From: Polytrichum commune
Taxonomy: Eukaryota; Streptophyta; Polytrichopsida; Polytrichales; Polytrichaceae
Direction: 5' to 3'
Length of the DNA: 64,000 nt
Assembly (NCBI GenBank): GCA_950295325.1
Contig: OX485804.1
Coordinates: 64,760,533-64,824,532, forward strand
In this document: in pieces, positions 3,801-61,225 of the stretch
Layout: every line of letters starts with the position of its first letter
How positions within the stretch are numbered: position 1 is the stretch's first letter
The notes under the pieces: generated by a model
Seen by the model: only the letters and a program-made list of their open reading frames with translations
Database searches by the model: none
What the model was told of the DNA's origin: nothing
Translations under genes and position numbers: made by a program

Positions 3801-5190
3801 TGTACTATTGGTGTCAATGTCTACCCATACCATATCCGAACGGTCATACCTACAACCTTAAATCCCAAACCCTACATTGTAAAACGCTTTGAAAAGTCTA
3901 GAGCAACCAATGAGAAGAATCGTGGATGTGAAACCCTAGCCCCTGGTCCCACACCCATGAAAGTATCACCTAACACCTTCCAATACCCACCTTACATTAC
4001 GTACCCACCTTTATCTTATTGACATGATCCTAAGCACTTTGTATTTTCTCCCACCTATATCAATTTCAAAACATTCTACTACCTTGCAGTATCTTCCAAT
4101 TTAATACACAAAGAGGTTATCTTAATCCTCTTGTCTCAATAAGTGGTTGAGATGTATCATATTTTTTTGACAAAATAGACCCATTCCTTACTCTCACGTA
4201 GTTTCCAAGGTTTAAACTAAGTCCCCCCCCCCTCCCCCCCCAAGATCCTAACAAAGTCAACCTCAAGAGTAGCTTGGTTTTTCACACATCTAAGTTCGCC
4301 TTGTTTGAAAATTTGGCTTGTGTGGGCCACCCCCGCACAATTAAATTTTCTTTTGGTTGCATCACCCAAGCATTGCCAACGATATTGGTACTTCTCACTG
4401 CCGTTGTTTTATTGGAAACTCTCTAGACTTATTTTGTTCGACGCCCAAGGCTTGAGTATTTTGAGAGAGAATTGAGTTCGAATTGGAATTGTCATCCGAA
4501 CATGTAAATAGCGGACTCAATCTTGGATTGCAAACACCCCACAATGTTTTTTATTCATTGCATAAGAAGATCAACAACACTTCTTTATTAGTGTCTAAAG
4601 TTTCCTACAAAAGATAATTTTTTCTATTCTCTTGTCAATCCATAATGGTCTTCTTTGCTCAACATCAACCACTTTCATGAAGCATGTATATGAAAGCACA
4701 CATAAAGCCCTGGATTGGGATTAAAATGTAAGGTTTTACATAGATACAAGGTTTATCATTCTAGAGTGTTCAACATGGTTCATTTTCACTTCACACTAAC
4801 CTTGAGGTATGTGATCATGCAAAACTAGTTTTGAAATTTTCATAGTACGACATTCGGATGGATTTCATGCATTTATAAGCTCATGATCATGGATCAAGAA
4901 ATTGTTTGTAAAGTGGATCCAATTAAGACGATGAGCATGACTCGTGTTGGTGCGCACCTATGTGGATAGATACATGCACTATTATGGAACCCCATGAGGT
5001 CTAGGCAAATGTGATGAAGTAATTTTGAACAATTTGATCATAGATTTAGAATGAACATGCAACCAATGACATTTCAAGTAAAATGTTAAACGTACTCCCT
5101 TTTAGCTCGGTGTGAGATGTTTTTCCAACCCAAAAACCCTCAGACCTTTTATGATATATCTTAATGGCATGCATTTGGATGCTTGGATAT
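861..5190. other. AT-rich intergenic stretch, no gene recognised
   Basis: I see no convincing gene. Minus-strand open frames at 1556-1879, 1937-2140 and 2127-2381 follow one another closely, but their translations match no family I know and the frames are broken between them. They could be remnants of an old mobile element. A C-rich tract (ten C, one T, eight C) lies at 4223-4241. Confidence 0.4.
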
Positions 5191-28249: not shown

Positions 28250-31200
28250 CTATGGATTCAGACCATAGTTGGTAGCAGAATCTGGATTTATTTTCTTCAA
28301 CCGGTCCACAAGCTTATCAAGTGTCAAGGGCTTGCTTACGAACTCATCGAAGCCACTTTGGGCACACTTAACCATGTCTCGATCTGAACAAACGCCAAAA
28401 CAGAAATTCATCTTATGAGCCATAATTTTGTAGGAGTCCATAATTTTCAAAGGTTGGGGCGTTGGAGGTTTCCTTAGGGCTACAATTAGGCAATCAAAAT
28501 AGCCCCTGAAATAATGACGTTAGGGAAGCCTATGATCATGGAGATCCAACCGCTTAGTTATAGATAGCCGGTTGAGTTTGAGAAAGAACCAGTTCAAGTT
28601 AAAGACTTCAGGCAAATTGTCGATAGTTTTAGAAGAATCTATAGAATATACCATCAATTAATAAAGTAAATCCAAAAGACATGAGCATGTAACTGGTTGG
28701 ACTTGGAAATACTTGAATCTCGACCGATTTTGCCCATATTCTACTTGGAAGCCATTGGAAAGGACCCTAATAAGTCCAAAGAGTGCCCTGTTGATGATTG
28801 GTCTCCAAATATATTGCAGATCAATTCAATCCATGCAGATATCTCATACTCATAGTTTTTAAACCTTTACACTGATCTTAGAGGAGGGACAGATCAGGTT
28901 TCCTTTATCACAAATTTCAAACCTTTAATAAAAAATAGGGTTCTCCACAAGGCAAACCCCTCAAATGCAACACACTCCATTGCTAGATATGGAGAAGAAC
29001 TCAGAAGTCAGTGCAACTCCAAGTAAATGCAAGTAATTTGTGTAGTCAAAATATCATAATTCAGATAAAGCTCATGAACTGTATTTTGTGCACCAGACCA
29101 ATTAATGGATTTCAGATATGCATTTAATGCTCAAGACACTGTAAATCTGACAGAAAATCTGTGTATACTTTGTGCAAAGAGTAGATTCTTAAAAAGTAAC
29201 ATTACGTACCACTAACATTTGCAGTGAGTGCAAAAACTGTCATTCGTTTTCTGGGTGGTTCTTGCTCTTCTTCCCATTCTCGAAACAGCTGCACCTGGAG
29301 CCCATGTCCATGGTAGTGTACACCAGACTCAGGCTTTCCCTTCCTTCCTCTCAAGTCTCCCAAAAGTGAGGTTCAAAGAGGTACAAGTACAAAGGATTTC
29401 ATTCTTATCGCTCCTCAGAACATGGGGTTCAATTTTTAGCTGTTACCATTTGTCATCAGCCAGCAAGTGCATTTAAACCCTACAAGACATCAGAGAATGA
29501 GAAAAAATTATTCTCAAAGCCTGGGAAAAATGCTCACAGGTGTTCTGTGTTCTTTAAGGGTTCTCATAGGCTTAAGCTGGCAACCAACATAAAAACCAGC
29601 TCATCTGGTGTCACGCGCATACGAATAGGCTCTTTTTGAAACGGGGTTCAGCAGGCCAAGGTAAAAGAATTTTGGCCTTGACATGTGCCTAACCTTGGAG
29701 ACCTTGGTTTCAAGGTTTGTCCCTTTGTTGGGGCAGAGAAGAGTTGAAAACGGACATTTGCCCCAAAAAATAGGGTCCAACCTTGAAACCAAGGTCCCCA
29801 ACGTTAGTACATATGTAAAGGCCAAAATTCTTTTACCGTGGCCCACCAAAGTCCGCTTCTCAGAAACAACATTTTGAAACATGTTGAAACATGACAATCA
29901 GGATGAGGGAGGGAGCAGGAATACCGCATGTGTGCCATCCATGACAGGCATTTGAAGATCCATAAGCACCAAATCAAATTGTGGAGGTAGCGCCTTGCCA
30001 TCTAGCACCTGCTCCGAATCAGAAGGTGCACGGAGTACATCCAGTGCCTCCTGGCCATTACATGTCACAGTTACATGGCAATCCAGACTCTGCAGCAACC
30101 TTTGGCCAATCTTTCGATTCACAACATCATCCTCCACTAGCAACACCTGCAGGTTTAAGGCAAAATTTACAAATCAAAGATGATCTTCCGGTTTCATTAT
30201 GTGGGCGAAGGATAGTTTTGTGTCTAAACATGCGCAAAGTTTGCCATGCATTCACTGTTACGATATATCAAGATTTATGCACTTGTCTGATGTAGCAATT
30301 AGATCTTGATTGGATGATAGCAGCTCAATGGTAGGGATCAGGATTTAGGTCTGACCATGATGACTGCACTTGATTTGTAAAACCCTTCTGAAAAAGTGCA
30401 ATTTGAATCTATGAAGATTCTTCACTCATAGCACACATGGTTGTGTGGTCCACTGCAACAAACTAGGTAACGGATGTGAGGAGCTCTGCATGGGCTGTAG
30501 TTGCTGCCCAGACTACTGAGCTGCAGTAATAGCAAAGTAGGTATTGGGTGCCTACTACAACCAATGGCAAGGCACCATGTTGGATGTAGTGGTTAGGCCA
30601 TGGCAAGGCCATCAATTACGGGTGATGATGTGCCTCTTCGTAACCAGTTGAACCGACATGTCAGTAAAATCGCTTGGCATGACCACTACGATATGTAACA
30701 ACACTTGAAGCAACCTTCAAGACTAGAAAGAAAGGAAGTCGACTCAGATGTTGCCACCGGCGTGAATTATGGTGTTGCTTCATTTTGAGTGGGCCCTGAA
30801 GATTACTGCCTCTTTTCAGTAGTGAACACCTTGAACGAACGCAGACAAGTTGGCATGGGAAAGCCTCTAGGTTCCCACATCATTGGTTGAAAATATCCGA
30901 TTCACTTGAATACCCCCACTACAATTGGGTGGACCATAGGTGGTGGGGTGCACCAGAATCAAGTGCTAGGAAGGTCACCTATCCAAGTACTATTCCAACC
31001 TTAGGCAGCTTAACCTCGAAGTTCTTATAGGACTAGGTTAAGGCCTTGGCTTTAAGCCACCCTCCTCAGGACTAGGCCTATGACCTCAAGCTCGGCAAGT
31101 AAAATTTCCAAGAACCACAAAGGACACAATGAGATTTATTGAAGCTTTTTAAGTATTGTAAATTTGTTGAAAGCAAGCACCTTTCGGCCCTTGAGAAGCT

Positions 31201-34200
31201 CTGCACCAGGGGGTTGAGATTGAGGGTTTTGGGAGGTTTTGGGAGTCCGTTGAATTGCAGCTTTACCCTTAGCAACTGGGGCTACTCTGTCTTCTTGCTC
31301 AGTGGCTGGACTGGACTTTGCAGCAGCCAGACCTATCTCAGCCTGTTCTACAGAAACCTCTGTGCTGCATATCATTTACACATGCTCATGATAAGTATTG
31401 AGAATCTCAAAGAAGTACAAGGGTGATCATGCTATAGAACATGATGAATGCTAGAGAAAAATCATACCTCAAAGGTGGTGTTGCCACAACTTCTTTACCC
31501 CGAACATGCTGCTCTAGCGGCTGCATCAATCAGATAATTATTAGAGATCATGCTCCTCCACTGAATACCCTGCCATCTGAAAACTCACAACTATCAATGT
31601 ACCCATAGATATACAATATACAACTATTACATGGCTTAATATAATATCATGCCCTCTGAAAATTCATAAATATCAATGTAGCCATAGATATACAACTGGT
31701 ACATGGCTAAATATAATATCATGTCCTTTGAAAACTCACAATTACCGATGTACCCATAGACATACAATTAACCCGTTGTTTGAATATCAAGCCATGTGAA
31801 AACTCACAACTATCAATACCCATAGACATATAGCTACTACATACCTGAATTTCATGCCATCCGAAAACTCACAACTATTGATGCACCCATAGATATGCAA
31901 CTGTGTGGATGAACCATGCCATCCAAAAACTCACGACTATACAATCTGTAGATACAGACCAAAGAAATTTCTAAATAAAAAGGATGGCTATTGATGACAC
32001 CTTTGAACCGCTTGTTGTGTCACCGAAGGGCTTCAGCTTTTCCGTGGCTTCATCTGGATCCAATCCTGCCCATGCTTTGCCCTTGTTACGTGCTGCTTGT
32101 AGCCGCTCCAGTACACTCAGAGGTGTAACTGGAGAGACAGGACGACTGCCACCTCCTACAAGTTCCCACTGTGGGTTAGGAACTTCAGATGGCCTCCGGG
32201 CACGGAGTGCTGCTGGAGGACTGTCCGCTGCTTCGCCTGTTGGCTTTGGGACTCCAACTGCTCTCAGGACTCCTTTGTTCTGGCTCACTTGTGCATGATC
32301 TTCCTGATGTTGCTGCAGGAGCAATACAAGGGTGTTTAACCGGTGGTCCACTAGAAAACACGGTCTAATAAGGTCCCACTTAATGTTTCAAAGTTAAAAT
32401 CTATAATAGTACTAAAAAAATCTTGGGTATTGGAAATCTATTTTGAAAATATAAGTGTATTCATCAAATATGCAAAATGTCTCATGAATTTGCGCTTCAC
32501 TTCATAGCCCCCTTCATCTCAGGTGGTTCATATCTCTACAAGGGAGTGACCCTCTTGTGGAGTAATTACCAGCAATAAAATGTTTTGGTTGAGCATCAGG
32601 TATTCAGAGTTCTTACAGAAACTTGCAGAGCAAGTGATGAAAAGCATACCGCTGGAGAAAAATTGAGGATGTCCTGCTCCACCCATGCATACCACCTGGC
32701 CGGGCACAATCATACAGGTCAATTTACTCTACAGATATACTAGGAACCTGCAAAGCTAGTCATAAATGTTGGTGACCATTTGTTGTGCCCTTCGACAGGT
32801 GTAATCCACAGAGTAGGAGTTTGCAACAACAGAATTTGAAAGGGTCAGAGAGGCGATCATTGAAAAGCATGAGGTGCCTAAAGAGTGTTACCTTGTACCA
32901 ACAGCTCGGCCAGTTGCCTGCACAGTTACATAGGAGCGATCTTTCCGCATACGCCGATAAATCACACTGCCTCCAAATGCGGCCTCACTGTCTTTCAAGT
33001 GAAGCATCTGGAAGAGAAGATTACAACCCATCAAACAAATTTCTAACTTCTTGTTTACCCTCAGCTCTTTGAAAATGTGACAACTTGTCAAACCTCAGTC
33101 TTCAGTATTGAGTACAGAATCTTACCAAATGCTCCTATTCCATAGTCTTGTCTCAGGAATCCCAATATTTCACAGAAACAAAACCAGGCACAGGTTGCAA
33201 TTAAGTCTGTGATCTATCAGCAGATTTGTGGCAGTTGGAAACCTCATTGCTTCTGTCTACTTGCTTAACATAAGCTTGTTTGCGGGATGTGCATTGAGAT
33301 TACACGCTGAAGGGTGGGAATGTCATCAGGGTGACAGGCACTCCACGCAGCTGTACCAATAAGCTCCTGAGGCATCCAACCTGTTGTGCGCTTTGTGCTG
33401 GGGGATACGTAACTCAGCAGCCACTGTCCGCACGAGTACCTATGATCCTGTTGTCAACAATTTCTTCTGCAGCTCCCCTACATCTCCTTTTCCCGCTATA
33501 TTACAGATGCTCAAAATGCGACCATCCCAAATTAAGTTCTTCAAGACTGAACAAGGGGATGCTTTCAATGCCCATGTAGAAGTCAAGGAAAGGTAACTTG
33601 CTGTTACACATTATTCTACTAGGCAAACCATGAAATATTGTGACCAGTTCTCATTCATTAGACAGAAGATGGTCTCCACATCTTGCAATTTAATTTTTTG
33701 GTTTGCGAAGGTTGAGAACTGTAGGGATATTGCATTGCATTGTTGACTACATGGGTTGAGATGAACCTGGTTGCGCTCTGCAATGTACATAGTCCAAGGT
33801 GAAGTGGCACTGAGCATGAGCATGTCAGTCACTAATGAGAGGTCAAGTCCTTCCATCGCAGCTTCAGCCATCCAGGCATCGGCAATTACCATTCTGCAGA
33901 CGTCTTGAAGTTCGTTCAAGCCTGCTTCAATCCTATTTTCACCCTAATACTAACCAAAGAGACTGTACCCACAAGCCGAAACAGAGTCTGTTCATGTATA
34001 CGTATGTTGTATTTGTAGAACATTAAGGTTTGCAAAGGAAGGGTGAGACTCCGCACCCTACACATCTGCAGCAAAATCTACAATGTCAAGTCTCTCTCTT
34101 CGGATCACCAAAAACATTCAACTCACAAAAGAAATATAGAGCACACAGTCGAAGCGACAGTGTAATGGAATCAGAGTGAGTTTATTGTGGATCTATGTAA

Positions 34201-36963
34201 TGTGCATAACTTCCGCATTGACCAAACAGATTAGGCTTCTTACACTAACTTTCTCTTTTCGGATCACCAAAAACGTTCAACTCACAAAAGTATGTATAGA
34301 GCACACAGTCGAAGCGACAGTTTAGTGGAATTAGAGTGATTGTTCTGTGGGCTATGTAATAATGTGCACAAGTTCTACATTGACCAACAGATTAGGTTTC
34401 TTGTACCGATTTCCTGTCTTCAGATCACCAAGAACATTTATTTCACAAAAGAATAAAGCACACAGTCGAAGGTCAGTGTAATGGGAATCAGACTGAAATT
34501 TTTGTGGTTGTACGTAGTAATGTGCACAAGTTCCGGATTGACCAACAGATTAAGATTCTTGCACTGACTTCCTGCATGGGTTTTCCCCACCGGACAGAAA
34601 CCTAATTGTCCAGAAATTGTGAGTGTTTTTCTAAAGGTTGGATATGAAGTGGAGAGGGAGGAGGATGAGAGAGGGACTGACTGTTTTGAAGTTGGAGCGG
34701 CAGGATTGAGATCAGTGAAGATCATGATGAGCTCCTCCAGGGAACGCAATTCCGCCTGCAATTTTCTGACATCCCCAGGAGCATCCCGACCTCCGACTGC
34801 TTGCATCATCGACAATTGCTCCTCCAGCTCATGGAAGCAACGGCGGTACACTCGCAGCCTTTCCGGGGCCGCCAACAGCATCCCTACTGGCCCATGCCCA
34901 ATGGTCACCGACCGCCGCATGATTGTACCAAAAGGATTAAGTATGTCCTACAATTGGGCAGAATAAATCACTCTCACATCGCTTTTTCTCCAACGGAGAA
35001 AGAGTGATAAGAGAGAGATGTGCTCGGACTCAATATAAAGAAACCAAACTGACTCACAGACCATCCAGATCGATTAAGTATGCTTTTCTTCCGCGGGAGA
35101 CACAGGAATATGAATCATGATGCCCTCTTAAAACTGGGCATGGTTAAGATAAGGCTGAGGATTCGGGTGCCCATCAATGTGGCCATTCTTTCGATGTGAA
35201 AATGGAGCAGATGCCGCATTCCATCAAATTTCACCAGAAATCCCAATACTCGAGAGAAAGTCCAAAGCTCCTGCCCTGATTCCCAACAGGTCTGCGAAGA
35301 GAGAGATTGATTCACTCGGACTCAGTAAGAAACCAATTAACTCAGAGACCCATCTAGATTAATTATGCTTTTCTTCCTAGAGAGACATATGAATATGACT
35401 CATGATGCCTTCTTGAAACTGGGCATGGTTAAGATGAGGCCGAGGTTCAGGGTGCCCATCAATGTGGCATGTGAAAATAGAGCAGATGCCGTATTCCATC
35501 AAATTTCACCAGAAAGTTCAAAGCTCCTTTCCTAATTCCCAATAGGTTTGCGAAGAGAGAGAGAGAGAGAGAGAGATTGATTTACACGGACTCAAAAAGA
35601 ACACAATCCGATCAGAGAACCTGATCAATTGTGCTTTTCTTCCCCGGGAGACATAGGAATCATAATGCCCTCTTGAAACTGGACAGGGTTAGCAGAGGCC
35701 AAGGTTTAGGATGTCAATCAATGTGGCCCTGCTTTCAATGCCAAAATGGAAGAGATGCCGCATGAGTCCATCAATTTTCACTAGAAAACCCAATACTCGA
35801 GCGAGAAAGTCCAAAGCTCCTTCCCTAATCCCCAAGAGGTGTGCGAAGAGAGGAATTGATTGATTTACTCGGACTTTAAAAGAAACAAATGGCATCAAAG
35901 ACCCTTCCAATCATGCATCGGACCATTTATGCTTTTCTTGCCCAGAAGATAAGATATATGGTGATGCCTCTCTCGAAACTGGGCAGTATTAAGATGCCGG
36001 CCGAGGTTTAGGGTATCAATCAATGTGGCCCTGCTTCGATGATTCAAAGTAAGAGATGCCGCAGTCCCTCCATTTTCAGCAGCAAACCCATGCGAGAAAA
36101 GCCCGTTGAAATTCCTAATTCCCTAATAAGCTCTCCATGGTCCCTGGAGAGCCCTGGAAATGTGCCTGCAAGTCCGTTTGAAGTATCCTTAATTATTATT
36201 GTCCCAATGCAACAATTCACTCTACTACTCATCAAAATGCAATGTGCGGAATGTTGTCGGACACCCAAATTGTCTGCATTGTCCACTCTACTACGATGAC
36301 GTGCCTCATTCCATCAGAGCTACACCAACCGTCATCCAAATTGCCGCCATGGCTCACGAGGTTAGCCTGTCACATGTCTGAGAAAAGAAACAAAAACAAA
36401 AACAAAATAAAACAGAACAAACAACCAGCATTCATCAGTCCAATGTATGTTTGTATCTATGTATGTATGGATGTATGTATGTATGTCTTCATGTGATGAC
36501 TTACTTGCAACCCAAACCAGACAAGAAGCTCTGATCCGCCAACACCTAAAGAGTGCTCCGAGGTGAAACCTGGCATCCAAACCCTAGTCAACTTGTCCAG
36601 GACATGGGTAGAGTAATGGGCAGAGTGCTGGCCAAACCCTTTACCTGCAGGGTTCTTCTTTTGCAGAGCAGAGGACCTAATTAATTGCCATTCCACAAAC
36701 ACTGCCAACATATGAATCCCGCTTAGGTGAAAGAACAATGCAAATTCACCTCTGGTAGATTTGCAGATTTCAGGACTCATATGCTTGTAGTGAAAGCTCT
36801 CAAAAACGGACGGACAGGCAGTTGTGAAGGGATCTGTAACTGGAAGGCAAAGACTGAATGACTGACTGACTATTCACATTCCACCACTTTGTTTTGTTCC
36901 CTTACCTACAGATGTGACCAAAAGGTAGGAGTCTGTTGATCTGCCATGATTCAGTAACTCCAT
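28250..36963 (-). CDS. PAS domain-receiver domain signalling protein (spliced, about 755 aa)
   Basis: This is my exon model, 5' to 3' on the minus strand: 36963-36906, 36839-36505, 36366-36265, 34947-34602, 33903-33767, 33447-33304, 33007-32892, 32695-32650, 32312-32001, 31520-31468, 31364-31181, 30146-29925, 29288-29210, 28383-28250. Every junction is GT-AG and every phase agrees, giving 2268 bases and 755 residues. The PAS domain covers about residues 311-428 (YVSPSTKRTTGW, QELIGTAAW, CHPDDIP, YRRMRKDRSYV). A proline/serine-rich linker follows. The receiver domain covers about 612-750, with acidic pair D617-D618, phosphoacceptor D674 (LMDLQMP), T707 (ALTAN) and K729 (VSKPL). It looks like the receiver of a hybrid histidine kinase, yet no H, N or G box is present. 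Such a protein should accept phosphate from a phosphotransfer partner while PAS senses a signal or binds a partner; that role is inferred. The last eleven exons are firm; the third exon's acceptor and donor are the weakest calls. Confidence 0.8.
28545..28745 (-). repeat. Family E repeat in the last intron of the PAS-receiver gene
   Basis: It is inverse to the copy at 7425: 'CCGGTTGAGTTTGAGAAAG', 'TCTATAGAATATA', then 'AACTGGTTGGACTTGGAAA'. It lies inside the intron 28384-29209 and carries no nested insertion. Confidence 0.6.
29638..29859. mobile_element. Long inverted repeat in an intron (hairpin with about 85-bp arms)
   Basis: The left arm (29638-29720) and right arm (29775-29859) are inverse copies. 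The left reads GGCCAAGGTAAAAGAATTTT, then GGCC, and later GACCTTGGTTTCAAGG; the right reads CCTTGAAACCAAGGTC, then GGCCAAAATTCTTTTACC, then GTGGCC. The central loop itself contains GGGGCA and TGCCCC. It sits in the intron 29289-29924 between the two halves of the receiver domain. It is probably a MITE. In the pre-mRNA it would form a long hairpin. Confidence 0.8.
31572..31940. repeat. Intronic tandem array, unit 62-79 bp, six copies
   Basis: 'GAAAACTCACAACTATCAATG' or close variants begin near 31580, 31659, 31731, 31799, 31864 and 31926, each followed by 'CCCATAGATATACAA'. It fills most of the intron 31521-32000 of the PAS-receiver gene. Unit length shrinks toward the right. Confidence 0.8.
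34091..34575. repeat. Intronic tandem array, unit about 160 bp, three copies
   Basis: 'GGATCACCAAAAAC' starts at 34102 and 34261 and in changed form at 34422. Each unit continues with 'TCAACTCACAAAAG', 'GAGCACACAGTCGAAG' and 'TTGACCAA-CAGATTAGG'. It lies in the intron 33904-34601. Confidence 0.82.
35050..36110. repeat. Intronic tandem array, unit about 266-298 bp, about four copies
   Basis: 'TGCTTTTCTT' recurs at 35081, 35366, 35632 and 35930. Units share 'GCCCTCTTGAAACTGGGCA', 'CATCAATGTGGCC', 'AGATGCCGCAT', 'CACCAGAAA' and 'GAGAAAGTCCAAAGCTCC'. It lies in the large intron 34948-36264. On the minus strand several units keep a short open frame with VLGFLVKFDG-like sequence (35115-35315, 35689-35910). 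The repeat may have grown from a transcribed or coding segment. Confidence 0.75.
36265..36963 (-). CDS. N-terminal exons 1-3 of the PAS-receiver gene (tentative)
   Basis: Exon 1 (36906-36963) starts at ATG and encodes MELLNHGRSTDSYLLVTSV, ending at a perfect AG|GTAAGG donor. Exon 2 (36505-36839) encodes about 111 residues, including CPSVFESFHYKHM and HMLAVFVEWQLIRSS, and ends at CAA|GTAAGT. Exon 3 (36265-36366) encodes ANLVSHGGNLDDGWCSSDG and onward, in phase with the exon at 34602-34947. An in-frame TGA lies upstream of the ATG. I recognise no domain in this part. If these exons belong elsewhere, the gene could instead start at the ATG at 34920 and encode 581 residues. A 6-base shift at the exon 2 acceptor (36833) is also possible. 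Confidence 0.5.
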
Positions 36964-56048: not shown

Positions 56049-56265
56049 TTAGTAGACGCGATAAGAGCACAAGGCTGGAATATTAGAGCCTTCATAGTTA
56101 TCACCGTAGGAGTAAGAGCGTCCCCAGCAGCCTCGCCAACCTGGAATAAAACGGCATTCCGGTATTGTAGGTGGCGGGTGCAAAAAAAATGGATCCCCAA
56201 GGAAGGCCCGCCAACGCCATAAGAGGAGAGCGGGCGGGCATAATTGAAGACGTTTTCCGCCATTT

Positions 56266-57723
56266 TTGCCTCGCTTGGCGTGCCGAGAAGAGGTCCGCTA
56301 CCCAAGAATATCGTCGGAAATAGGCATGTCAGGGTGTACCACTGCTGACGTCATCGCGGGTGGGGCGAAGCGGAAGGGGAAGAATTTCCTGCCCGAGGAG
56401 GAAGAGCAAACATGCAGGAGTTTTATGTATGTCTCAACAAACGCGCGGCGGGGGATCGGGCAGAAAAAAGCTACGTTTTGGATTGCTGTTGCTTCGCATT
56501 ATGCAAGAAACAAACCTGCAGCATGTCCGGAGCGACCTGCGAGGAGTATTGAGACGAAGTGGGGAGATCTGAAGGCGAGCATCGCCAAGTTCGTGGGCTG
56601 CTATGAGCAGATCAAATCCCTCGACGAGAGCGGGCGAATAGAGGACGACATCATCCTTGATGCATTGCAGCTTTTTGAGCAGAAGGTGGGGAGGCCATTC
56701 GCCCACAAACATTGCTGGTTGCTGCTCCGAGATCACCCGCGATTTGCTGCCATCTTCAGGGCTTCAGGGTCGAAGCGCAAGGCTCCAGGCACTCAGGGTT
56801 GTGATCTGCCGGTTGACAGGAGGGAGGCTAACTCTCCCGATGAGCAGCCACGTGAAGGAGTCGACGCCAACGTGAACCTGCACAGGCCACAAGGAGTGAA
56901 GTCAGCAAAGTCTGAACACAAGGACATGAGGGAGAAGGAAGCAGCCTTGAGGGCGAATGCGAGGGCAACAGCCGATTTCGCTCAAGCAACTTTGAAGAAG
57001 GCTGAGCAGATCGCCCAGCAAAATGCCTTCAGCCTCTTCACGCTGGAGGATTCCCTTATCACGTGCCAAGTAGCCCGTAGATGGCTCCTTCTCCGCCGCC
57101 AGCAAGAGCTCAAACGGCTTGAGAAGGAGATGGCAGCCGAGGAAGACTCATCGAATGCAGGCGATGTTGTTGCGCCGAATGCGGGTGTGCGAGTGCACAC
57201 AGGCACCATCCCCGGATGCGCTGCCGCACCCACAGATCTTTTCGCTCCCTCCTCGACTCCCCTTTCTCCTTCACCCCCAGTGCAGCCAGATCTCAATGTA
57301 GGGGCCACTATGGGATTGGAAGGTGATGACGATGAAGACCAAGAGGACTCCGATAGCGAGGCAGCCCATCGGAATCGCTACCGCAACTCTGAGCCCAGCC
57401 TCTACATGCAGAGTGCACAATTGAAAGCTAGGGCACATCAGCGTAGTTATGATAGTTTAGGTGGTTGCGAAGGGGAAGAGATGTGTAGGGTTCCCCCTTC
57501 GCAACGTCGCCGCACTGGCGAGTACCCTAACGGCGAAGTTCAGTTTAGGGAGGCCTCGAAGCAGGTCCTCTGGAATGAGACCCTGGCTTCCGAATATGCC
57601 ACCAGAAATTGTTTGCCTGCTATTCCTCCCTCGATGCCAATCCCTCCACCCATCGGTAGTCATTACCAAAACATCCCTTGGGCAGCTCCATCGCCTTGGC
57701 AACCTGGTGCAAGAGTGTTATAA
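56266..57723 (+). CDS. PIF/Harbinger ORF1, Myb/SANT-like DNA-binding protein (485 aa)
   Basis: This is the accessory protein that works with the transposase, helping it bind the element ends and reach the nucleus (known for the family). Residues about 40-160 form the trihelix/SANT-like domain with its conserved aromatic and acidic positions: FLPEEEEQTC, RGIGQKKATFW, SIETKWGDL, IAKFVGCYEQ, HCWLLLRDHPRF. Many plant genomes annotate this family as NAM-associated or 'glutathione S-transferase T3-like' proteins. SKRKAPG follows the domain. A long charged helix, probably a coiled coil, spans about 220-295 (many A, E, K, R and Q). The tail is rich in S, P, D and E. The start at residue 1 or at Met21 (MSGCTTADV) cannot be decided. 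The frame is open throughout, so the gene looks functional. Confidence 0.88.
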   Translation: MPRLACREEVRYPRISSEIGMSGCTTADVIAGGAKRKGKNFLPEEEEQTCRSFMYVSTNARRGIGQKKATFWIAVASHYARNKPAACPERPARSIETKWGDLKASIAKFVGCYEQIKSLDESGRIEDDIILDALQLFEQKVGRPFAHKHCWLLLRDHPRFAAIFRASGSKRKAPGTQGCDLPVDRREANSPDEQPREGVDANVNLHRPQGVKSAKSEHKDMREKEAALRANARATADFAQATLKKAEQIAQQNAFSLFTLEDSLITCQVARRWLLLRRQQELKRLEKEMAAEEDSSNAGDVVAPNAGVRVHTGTIPGCAAAPTDLFAPSSTPLSPSPPVQPDLNVGATMGLEGDDDEDQEDSDSEAAHRNRYRNSEPSLYMQSAQLKARAHQRSYDSLGGCEGEEMCRVPPSQRRRTGEYPNGEVQFREASKQVLWNETLASEYATRNCLPAIPPSMPIPPPIGSHYQNIPWAAPSPWQPGARVL

Positions 57724-59355: not shown

Positions 59356-60666
59356 CTAATATGCATTGTCCCCTTTATGCTCCCATAGGTGTTGTACAAG
59401 GTCGTCACGCAAGTTGTAGTAAGTATCAGTGTCCTCAATGAGTGCAGTTTCTCGTGTCAAATCGGCGAAGGTGAAACCTCGTCTCATCCCCGATGATGAT
59501 GAAGATGCAACTCCTGGTGTTAGAATTTCCAAGTCTCTACCACTCTCATCCTCTATAATCATATTATGCATTATAATGCAAGCATACATAACATCCGAAA
59601 TGTCTGATGTATTCCACAACTTGCACGGTTGTGTGATAATGCTCCACCTAGCTTGCATCACTCCGAAACATCGTTCTACATCCTTGCGCGCAGATTCTTG
59701 AGCTCCTGAGAAGTTACTTTCTTTTTGGTCCTCGGGGTCCTGTAGGGATTGGACGAAGCAACTCCACTTAGGGTAAATGCCATCGGCGAGCAAGTAGCAC
59801 TTTTCATACCAGTTCCCATTGACCCTAAATCCAACACTACTGGCAGCGCCATGAACCAACTTGCGTACCAGTGGACTGCGATCCAGTACATTTAAGTCGT
59901 TGTTGCCACCCGGGAGGCCGAAAAATGCATGCCAAACCCATAAACTTTGATCGCACACTGCTTCGAGAATTATACTCCTTTTTTTATCTTTATCTTGAAA
60001 TGCCCACTGCAATGCAACTGGACACAACTTCCATTTCCAATGCATGCAATCTATGGAACCAAACATACCTGGCCACCCCCGCTCCTGATTTATCTCCATT
60101 TGTTTCACAATATCATCTTGTGAGGGATCCCGCAAATAGTACTCTGTAAAACATCGCCTAACCCCCCTGCACCACCGCAACATCGCCTCTTGAGCAGTGC
60201 TTTCAGCCATCCTAGTGTATTCTTCTTGTGCCTTTGATGAGGTCCCGTACGCTAGCATACGCATTGCAGCCGTGGCCTTTTGAAGACTGCTTAACCCCAA
60301 CTTTCCTGCAGCGTTCCTTTTTTGAACGAAATAATCGTCAGACTCTGTGATTGCATGCAATATACGGAGAAAAAGAGGTTTCCTCATGCGATAAACGCGT
60401 CTGAAATCAGTGTCATCAAATATGGGGTCGTCCGAGAAATAGTCTTTGAAGAGCAAGGCATCGTACATCTCGGCTAAACGCTCTTTGTTCGCCCTCCTCC
60501 CTAGACGACTACCACCCCGCTGCCTTGGTTCATCGTCGCTGGAAACATTGTCATATTGTTGGGCTAGCGTTCTCATAACGAATTCCTCTCCTTCATCATC
60601 CTCTAGATTAGCCTGAATGTCTTGGTTGTACCTTCTCCAACGATTCGACATTGTGATGTACCTCAA
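59356..60666 (-). CDS. PIF/Harbinger transposase, DDE family (436 aa)
   Basis: This enzyme cuts out the element and inserts it at TWA sites. The catalytic triad is complete: D206 in FGSIDCMHW, D295 in YLLADGIYPKW and E331 in RKDVERCFGVMQARW, with 88 residues between the first two and 35 between the last two (the D35E spacing). Other family landmarks are GLPGGNNDLNVLDRS, ACIIMHNMI and an N-terminal helical, probably DNA-binding, part (RKPLFLRI). Length is normal for the plant family (Plant_tran/DDE_Tnp_4). The natural start may be Met6 (MSNRWRRYNQ). The frame is uninterrupted and I see no intron. It converges with ORF1. Confidence 0.95.
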   Translation of the reverse strand: MRYITMSNRWRRYNQDIQANLEDDEGEEFVMRTLAQQYDNVSSDDEPRQRGGSRLGRRANKERLAEMYDALLFKDYFSDDPIFDDTDFRRVYRMRKPLFLRILHAITESDDYFVQKRNAAGKLGLSSLQKATAAMRMLAYGTSSKAQEEYTRMAESTAQEAMLRWCRGVRRCFTEYYLRDPSQDDIVKQMEINQERGWPGMFGSIDCMHWKWKLCPVALQWAFQDKDKKRSIILEAVCDQSLWVWHAFFGLPGGNNDLNVLDRSPLVRKLVHGAASSVGFRVNGNWYEKCYLLADGIYPKWSCFVQSLQDPEDQKESNFSGAQESARKDVERCFGVMQARWSIITQPCKLWNTSDISDVMYACIIMHNMIIEDESGRDLEILTPGVASSSSSGMRRGFTFADLTRETALIEDTDTYYNLRDDLVQHLWEHKGDNAY

Positions 60667-61225
60667 ACAAACTAAACAACAATCCTGCGGATACGAATGG
60701 CAAAACTAAATGATAATGGCAAAGCCAATAGTTTTAATATATAGGATGGAACGTGTGCGAAGATGTACTACATGAAGTTGGTCGTACACCCTAAACCCCT
60801 ACACGAAGATGGCCTCAACGTGTGGCAAGGAAATTTTCAATTGGTATCCCACGTATTATTGCTAGACAACAAAATGAATAAGACAAAAATAAGGCAAAGT
60901 CATCCATGCAATGTTCATGCATTTTAGACATCGATGTATTCAAGAACATTTGTGGCTCTCATTAGGTCGCAGTAGATATTGTTGAGCATATGCCTTGTGA
61001 CTTTGGGCAAGCCATTCAACACATTATGCTATAAATTTCATTTGACGTGTAACTTCAAATCCAAAGTGTCACGTGGCGTTCTTAAAAACAAATATGAATG
61101 TCAATTGACATCTACATTTTATTCTAAAATGTCACCTCAATTTTGGCTTACACAATATTTTAGGAAAACTAATATTTTGAATAAGCAATATGCAATCTTG
61201 ATTTGTAACAAGAAAAAAAAACTTA

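Follow-up and report, generated by a model that had tools for sequence, protein, structure and literature searches.

The window (the whole 64-kb stretch of Polytrichum commune DNA that was analysed) carries on its minus strand a gene whose predicted product is a PAS-linker-receiver protein without a histidine-kinase core, a conclusion that holds with corrections to the preliminary description of this DNA. A motif search of the window placed CHPDD at 33336, YRRMRKD at 32959, LMDLQMPVMDG at 29966 and REWEEEQ at 29282, all on this strand. According to predicted splicing, exons 2 to 11 run from 33921 down to 28250 as ten exons in one open frame ending with a stop codon at 28250; judged by stop-to-stop frames and splice-site reading, every intron between them is GT-AG and each junction is in phase. 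With exon 1 included, the predicted protein has 587 residues. The gene model is as follows:

Exon 1 (probable), 34602..34920, minus strand: N-terminal segment, 319 nt in the model; ATG at 34920, 169-residue stop-to-stop frame
Exon 2, 33767..33921, minus strand: lead-in to and start of the PAS fold; GT-AG, in phase
Exon 3, 33304..33447, minus strand: PAS core (SYVSPSTKRTTGWMPQELIG to CHPDDIP); PAS_3 match, E 1e-10
Exon 4, 32892..33007, minus strand: second half of the PAS domain (VIYRRMRKDRSYVTVQATGRAV); splice chain and Pfam
Exon 5, 32650..32695, minus strand: end of the PAS domain; splice sites, in phase
Exon 6, 32001..32312, minus strand: first part of the linker; splice chain and open-frame statistics
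Exon 7, 31468..31520, minus strand: linker; splice chain
Exon 8, 31181..31364, minus strand: linker, ending in LKGRK just before receiver strand 1; splice chain
Exon 9, 29925..30146, minus strand: N-terminal half of the receiver (E448, D449 and phospho-acceptor D506); splice chain and Pfam
Exon 10, 29210..29288, minus strand: middle of the receiver (T539); splice chain and Pfam
Exon 11, 28250..28383, minus strand: C-terminal part of the receiver (K561) and stop codon; splice chain and Pfam

The in-phase exons for a PAS domain and a complete receiver that had been described earlier are thus borne out by ten GT-AG-joined exons and by the PAS_3 and Response_reg matches, and exon 9 was also matched by the genome-wide Response_reg search (C2:64790451-64790678). 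The earlier placement of the gene start at 36963, adding about 168 residues, found no support, the longest frame there having no Pfam match up to E 10. Exon 1 is likewise free of Pfam matches up to E 10, and its 3' end is uncertain because several candidate GT donors fit and a 158-bp tandem repeat starts nearby in the intron. Comparison of the acceptor region with decayed copies leaves two starts for exon 3, at 33447 or, eight residues on, at 33423, such that the first eight residues are uncertain. The repeat in intron 1 comprises three tandem copies (window 34097-34574), and a 72-bp unit occurs in 2.1 copies in the intron that separates exon 6 from exon 7 (31616-31767).

Base composition sets the exons as a whole (GC about 0.52) apart from the introns (0.34-0.44), with exon 1 at 0.538 (computed for 34917-34602) and exons 10 and 11, at 0.43 and 0.44, no higher than introns. 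GC by codon position is 0.63, 0.46 and 0.46, exon 1 being counted one codon short. For exons 1 and 6, which are the longest frames and hence picked, the chance of each staying open in a given frame in intron sequence is about 0.00075.

The profile searches with PAS and Response_reg models that the preliminary description had suggested matched both domains in the 587-residue model: PAS_3 at residues 171-242 (E 1e-10, 42.2 bits against a Pfam cut-off of 25.6) and Response_reg at residues 444-572 (E 1.9e-18, 67.1 bits against 30.2). The receiver residues E448, D449, the phospho-acceptor D506, T539 and K561 are all intact. The spacing earlier given as D617, D674, T707 and K729 corresponds to D449, D506, T539 and K561; the pair D617-D618 equals D449-D450 and is not the acidic pair, which by alignment is Glu448-Asp449. 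The linker encoded by exons 6 to 8 has 183 residues, in keeping with the roughly 180 proposed, but it is rich in alanine and proline (12.6% Ala, 11.5% Pro) rather than in proline and serine (7.7% Ser). It has no match in Pfam up to E 10 or in PHROG up to E 0.01. Lead-ins similar to its terminal LKGRK occur in kinases of the same genome, as LKGLKVLVTDDN in L010/L011 and LLSGKRFLVVDDN in L038 (L numbers designate loci).

Several searches bear on the kinase core. Against Pfam up to E 1, the 587-residue model yields six families, none of them a kinase family, and no Myb-like, CCT or bHLH match. At E 0.01, the HisKA and HATPase_c models have 39 and 35 matches in the genome and none inside the 64-kb window, the dozens of exons matched elsewhere serving as a positive control. 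Profile HMMs trained on kinases of the same genome give best E values of only 1.5 (HisKA) and 7.9 (HATPase) in the six frames of the window. The same HisKA profile gives 1e-36 to 1e-50 on its six training loci and 1.7e-16 on one untrained locus (L030), and the HATPase profile gives 1e-65 to 1e-69 on three training loci and 1e-12 to 1e-27 on untrained ones (among the matches listed, 12 of 28). The lack of an H, N or G box noted earlier is therefore upheld by Pfam, by the genome-wide searches and by the own-genome profiles alike, and the idea that kinase exons had been missed is rejected, the controls being positive.

The receiver was compared with others in the 407.8 Mb of the genome that were searched (seven large contigs of 42-78 Mb). 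Response_reg matched 40 exons, which group into 32 loci. In 28 of these, a HisKA or HATPase match precedes the receiver on its own strand by no more than 10 kb; the four exceptions are the window gene and three loci with 71-95% identity to a type-B query. These are minimum counts, the family model having overlooked a fourth type-B locus (C5:13.16 Mb) and being liable to pass over type-A or type-C genes too. The names used here for kinases and regulators of this genome (ethylene-receptor-like, cytokinin-receptor-type receivers, type-B regulators and PAS hybrid kinase) are our presumed assignments. The window receiver scores 110 bits against a profile made from 20 own-genome kinase receivers and 27.6 bits against one made from four type-B receivers; in leave-one-out runs, true kinase receivers score 89-153 bits on the former and 14.6-52.3 on the latter. 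Among the best 60 of 106 matches in the PDB, the best are named histidine kinases, including 8phn (E 1.2e-16) and 4euk (Histidine kinase 5, E 1.1e-12). These comparisons support the view, already expressed in the preliminary description, that the receiver is of the hybrid-kinase kind, as its sequence appears to fit kinase-attached receivers far better than type-B regulators.

The relatives of the receiver within the kinases are less sharply marked. By tblastn, the closest receivers in the genome belong to two ethylene-receptor-like kinases (37% and 40%). The receiver phylogeny that had been called for delivered the split of type-B regulators from the rest (100/100 support in the second tree, with 24 receivers and omitting L020, one divergent kinase receiver) and failed to name an ancestor or sister: the window gene stands on a long branch with no supported sister in that tree, and has none in the first tree (22 rows) either. 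The nearest receiver by path is L014 in the second tree and, by a hair, L026 in the first. An AU test rejected none of four groupings of the window gene, type-B included (p = 0.239 with L014, 0.288 with L026, 0.078 with L025 and L027, and 0.365 with type-B). By eye, no receiver intron position was seen to be common to the window gene and the fetched kinases; L038 and L039 have a receiver intron a few residues from one of the window gene's. The receiver of L025, a hybrid kinase about 26-32 kb past the window end (C2:64850966-64857013), is interrupted by a long insertion where the window receiver has one too.

At E 0.1, PAS_3 has five matches in the genome, namely the window gene, the LOV proteins L016, L106 and L107, and the PAS hybrid kinase L014 (C6:24.81 Mb), the last being the only other non-LOV PAS_3 match found. 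Along 58 residues, its PAS domain shares 31% identity with that of the window gene (in a small set, E 2.4e-5). A local PAS search of 30 fetched loci (L010-L039) returned L014 as the one clear match, with the next best at E 0.38, 22 of the 30 having been trimmed to the immediate surroundings of the receiver or kinase, where a PAS domain would not show; L014 is absent from the genome-wide tblastn matches at E 0.01. By eye, the L014/L031 locus (C6:24814300-24825200) reads as a hybrid kinase; besides its PAS_3 match it shows other stretches resembling PAS domains and two resembling receivers, of which the first is atypical. NCRFLQ, which we take to be the flavin-binding cysteine motif of LOV photoreceptors, is not in the 587-residue model and is present in L016 (C7:2.58 Mb).

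Beyond this genome, two Flavobacterium kinases (L070 and L073) have PAS domains 34-36% identical to that of the window gene (E 2e-12 and 2e-10 in a small fetched set), and the latter may for that reason be regarded as a PAS_3 domain of general type. In the PDB it is matched best by animal bHLH-PAS proteins (ARNT, E 1.2e-6; Cycle, 8.9e-6; BMAL1, 1.8e-4); kinship with ARNT was rejected, the similarity being attributed to a common PAS_3 type and to the content of the PDB. Scanning bacterial and archaeal genomes by way of the receiver yielded 59 loci; for 46 of them, and not for the other 13, the flanking DNA retrieved contains a kinase core in the same orientation. Six of the scan loci appeared to match from residue 60-78, in the PAS part; on re-alignment these proved to be extended receiver matches, and all six have both core models.

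No intact paralogue was found in the genome by tblastn at E 0.01. Five decayed PAS copies (L005-L009, at C1:15105917, C3:36989553, C7:8410788, C5:2685450 and C6:10856004) are fragments of exons 3 and 4 with 74-88% DNA identity to parts of window 32843-33516. Intron-3 sequence is also kept in L005, L006, L007 and L009, and stop codons lie inside the matches in two of the five (C1 and C7). In the 8 kb fetched around each copy, no convincing match to the receiver or the linker was seen. The copies have in common both departures from the window sequence and additional flanking DNA, and may thus stem from a lost paralogue or from spread by a mobile element. Their number is a lower bound, since matches to a repeat within the L006 intron overwhelmed the DNA search for more of them; this repeat, of about 340 bp at bases 4395-4744 or so, has at least 42 further matches at 96-100% identity, with scores for 40 of the 4571 candidates.

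Plant response regulators are usually grouped as type A, B, C or pseudo-regulators, and we know of none among these that senses a signal via a PAS domain of its own. Type-A and type-C regulators consist of a receiver without an output domain and, to our knowledge, lack a PAS domain; by this description, the window gene with its PAS domain stands apart from both. A pseudo-response regulator has a receiver without the phospho-acceptor aspartate, together with a CCT domain, whereas the window gene has D506 and no CCT match up to E 1. Type-B regulators resemble it in having a receiver without an attached kinase core, but its receiver scores 27.6 against 110 bits and no Myb-like match is found up to E 1; the tree alone permits kinship. 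Unlike LOV photoreceptors, the model lacks the NCRFLQ motif, and unlike the animal bHLH-PAS proteins ARNT, Cycle and BMAL1, which provide the best PDB matches to its PAS domain, it has no bHLH match. In the bacterial PAS_3 kinases of Flavobacterium (L070, L073) a similar PAS domain sits inside a kinase and, in contrast to the window gene, the receiver match lies on the next reading frame downstream. Of the parts that define a hybrid histidine kinase, the predicted product has the kinase-type receiver at its C-terminus, complete with acidic pair, Asp, Thr and Lys, and neither HisKA nor HATPase_c. The gene as modelled is therefore outside the definitions of hybrid kinases, type-B regulators and pseudo-regulators.

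The closest architecture among known plant proteins is that of the PAS hybrid kinases of non-seed plants (PHK1 and PHK2, and L014 here), which likewise combine an N-terminal PAS domain with a C-terminal kinase-type receiver. PHK1 and PHK2 of Physcomitrella are PAS-PAS-HisKA-HATPase-REC proteins, and the available portion of the survey describing them places the PHK group in bryophytes, lycophytes and a charophyte and not in ferns or seed plants (PMC6137987). The window gene, with one PAS domain and no core, is set apart from PHK by this description. No description of a plant PAS-receiver protein was recognised among the papers listed in searches of the open-access literature, including the available portions of PMC6137987, PMC10338860 and PMC9915684.

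With regard to a phosphate donor, the Hpt family model has no match in the genome. Two HPt-like loci with VHQFKGSS (C5:46.71 Mb and C2:6.71 Mb) were found in a motif search (E 0.011 and 0.019), and their frames, with exons joined by eye, have the look of HPt exons, containing VDGHVHQFKGSSS and SIGAQRVKQVCITFRQCC. On the strength of these two loci, a donor for the receiver probably exists. Hybrid histidine kinases in the same cell would phosphorylate HPt proteins, which in turn would phosphorylate D506 of the window receiver, and the PAS domain, via a ligand, redox state or a partner, could alter the charging or the binding of the receiver. The protein would then most likely act as a phosphate sink or as a protein-binding regulator of the phosphorelay, a role suggested by the fact that no output domain was recognised.

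Our overall reading is thus of a PAS-linker-receiver protein without a core that would serve as an HPt-fed, PAS-modulated phosphate acceptor, with core loss from a PAS hybrid kinase as its likeliest origin; we give this reading an even chance. The origin by core loss, already proposed in the preliminary description, is the simplest account and is weakly favoured because both domains point, weakly, to L014: that much of the proposal stood, while the supported sister and the shared introns that would have strengthened it did not materialise. A competing origin, which we hold to be somewhat unlikely, is fusion, in which a set of PAS exons became linked to a copy of a hybrid-kinase receiver and the gene never had a core of its own. 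Fusion would agree with the lack of receiver intron positions seen by eye to be common to the fetched kinases, with the lack of support for a PAS-kinase sister in either receiver tree and with ethylene-receptor-like kinases having the tblastn-nearest receivers, but not readily with L014 providing both the nearest non-LOV PAS domain found and, in one of the two trees, the nearest receiver, both weakly. Core loss might also have been followed by loss of function, leaving a decaying PAS hybrid kinase gene from which the core was deleted. The five decayed PAS-exon copies elsewhere and the failure to find an intact paralogue at E 0.01 are in line with decay; nevertheless, all modelled exons are open, all introns are GT-AG, the receiver residues have all been kept and a long coding sequence stays open across the linker, making decay improbable.

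Two further alternatives concern how the protein is built and how it works. The protein might pair with a PAS hybrid kinase and lend it a second receiver, with the core acting in trans and not via HPt. PAS domains often dimerise, and a PAS hybrid kinase with the sole other non-LOV PAS_3 match found, L014, is present; yet its PAS identity of only 31% over 58 residues, and the fact that the pairing itself is something we infer, make this regulatory partnership an improbable one too. Still less credible is that a PAS protein (exons 1 to 5) and a receiver protein arise from two transcripts that were wrongly joined by phase-compatible exons: the splicing is indeed predicted, but the first strand of the receiver begins exactly at an acceptor, without an ATG, exon 8 gives the typical LKGRK lead-in, and the phases agree from exon 5 through exons 6, 7 and 8 to exon 9.

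If the core-less acceptor reading is right, a PAS-receiver protein would equip the phosphate-accepting end of the phosphorelay with a sensor, and the window gene could testify to core loss within the PAS kinases. That it represents a distinct class of plant response regulator, a PAS-gated, kinase-derived receiver lacking both a core and any known output domain, through which a PAS signal would tune the HPt phosphorelay directly, is a tentative possibility that we consider doubtful.

Elsewhere in the window, two long open frames lie towards its far end, one at 56248-57723 on the plus strand for a protein with a NAM-associated domain (E 1.5e-10) and one at 59356-60705 on the minus strand for a Plant_tran/DDE_Tnp_4 transposase (E 9.7e-81). 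Together they are presumably the two genes of a PIF/Harbinger transposon.
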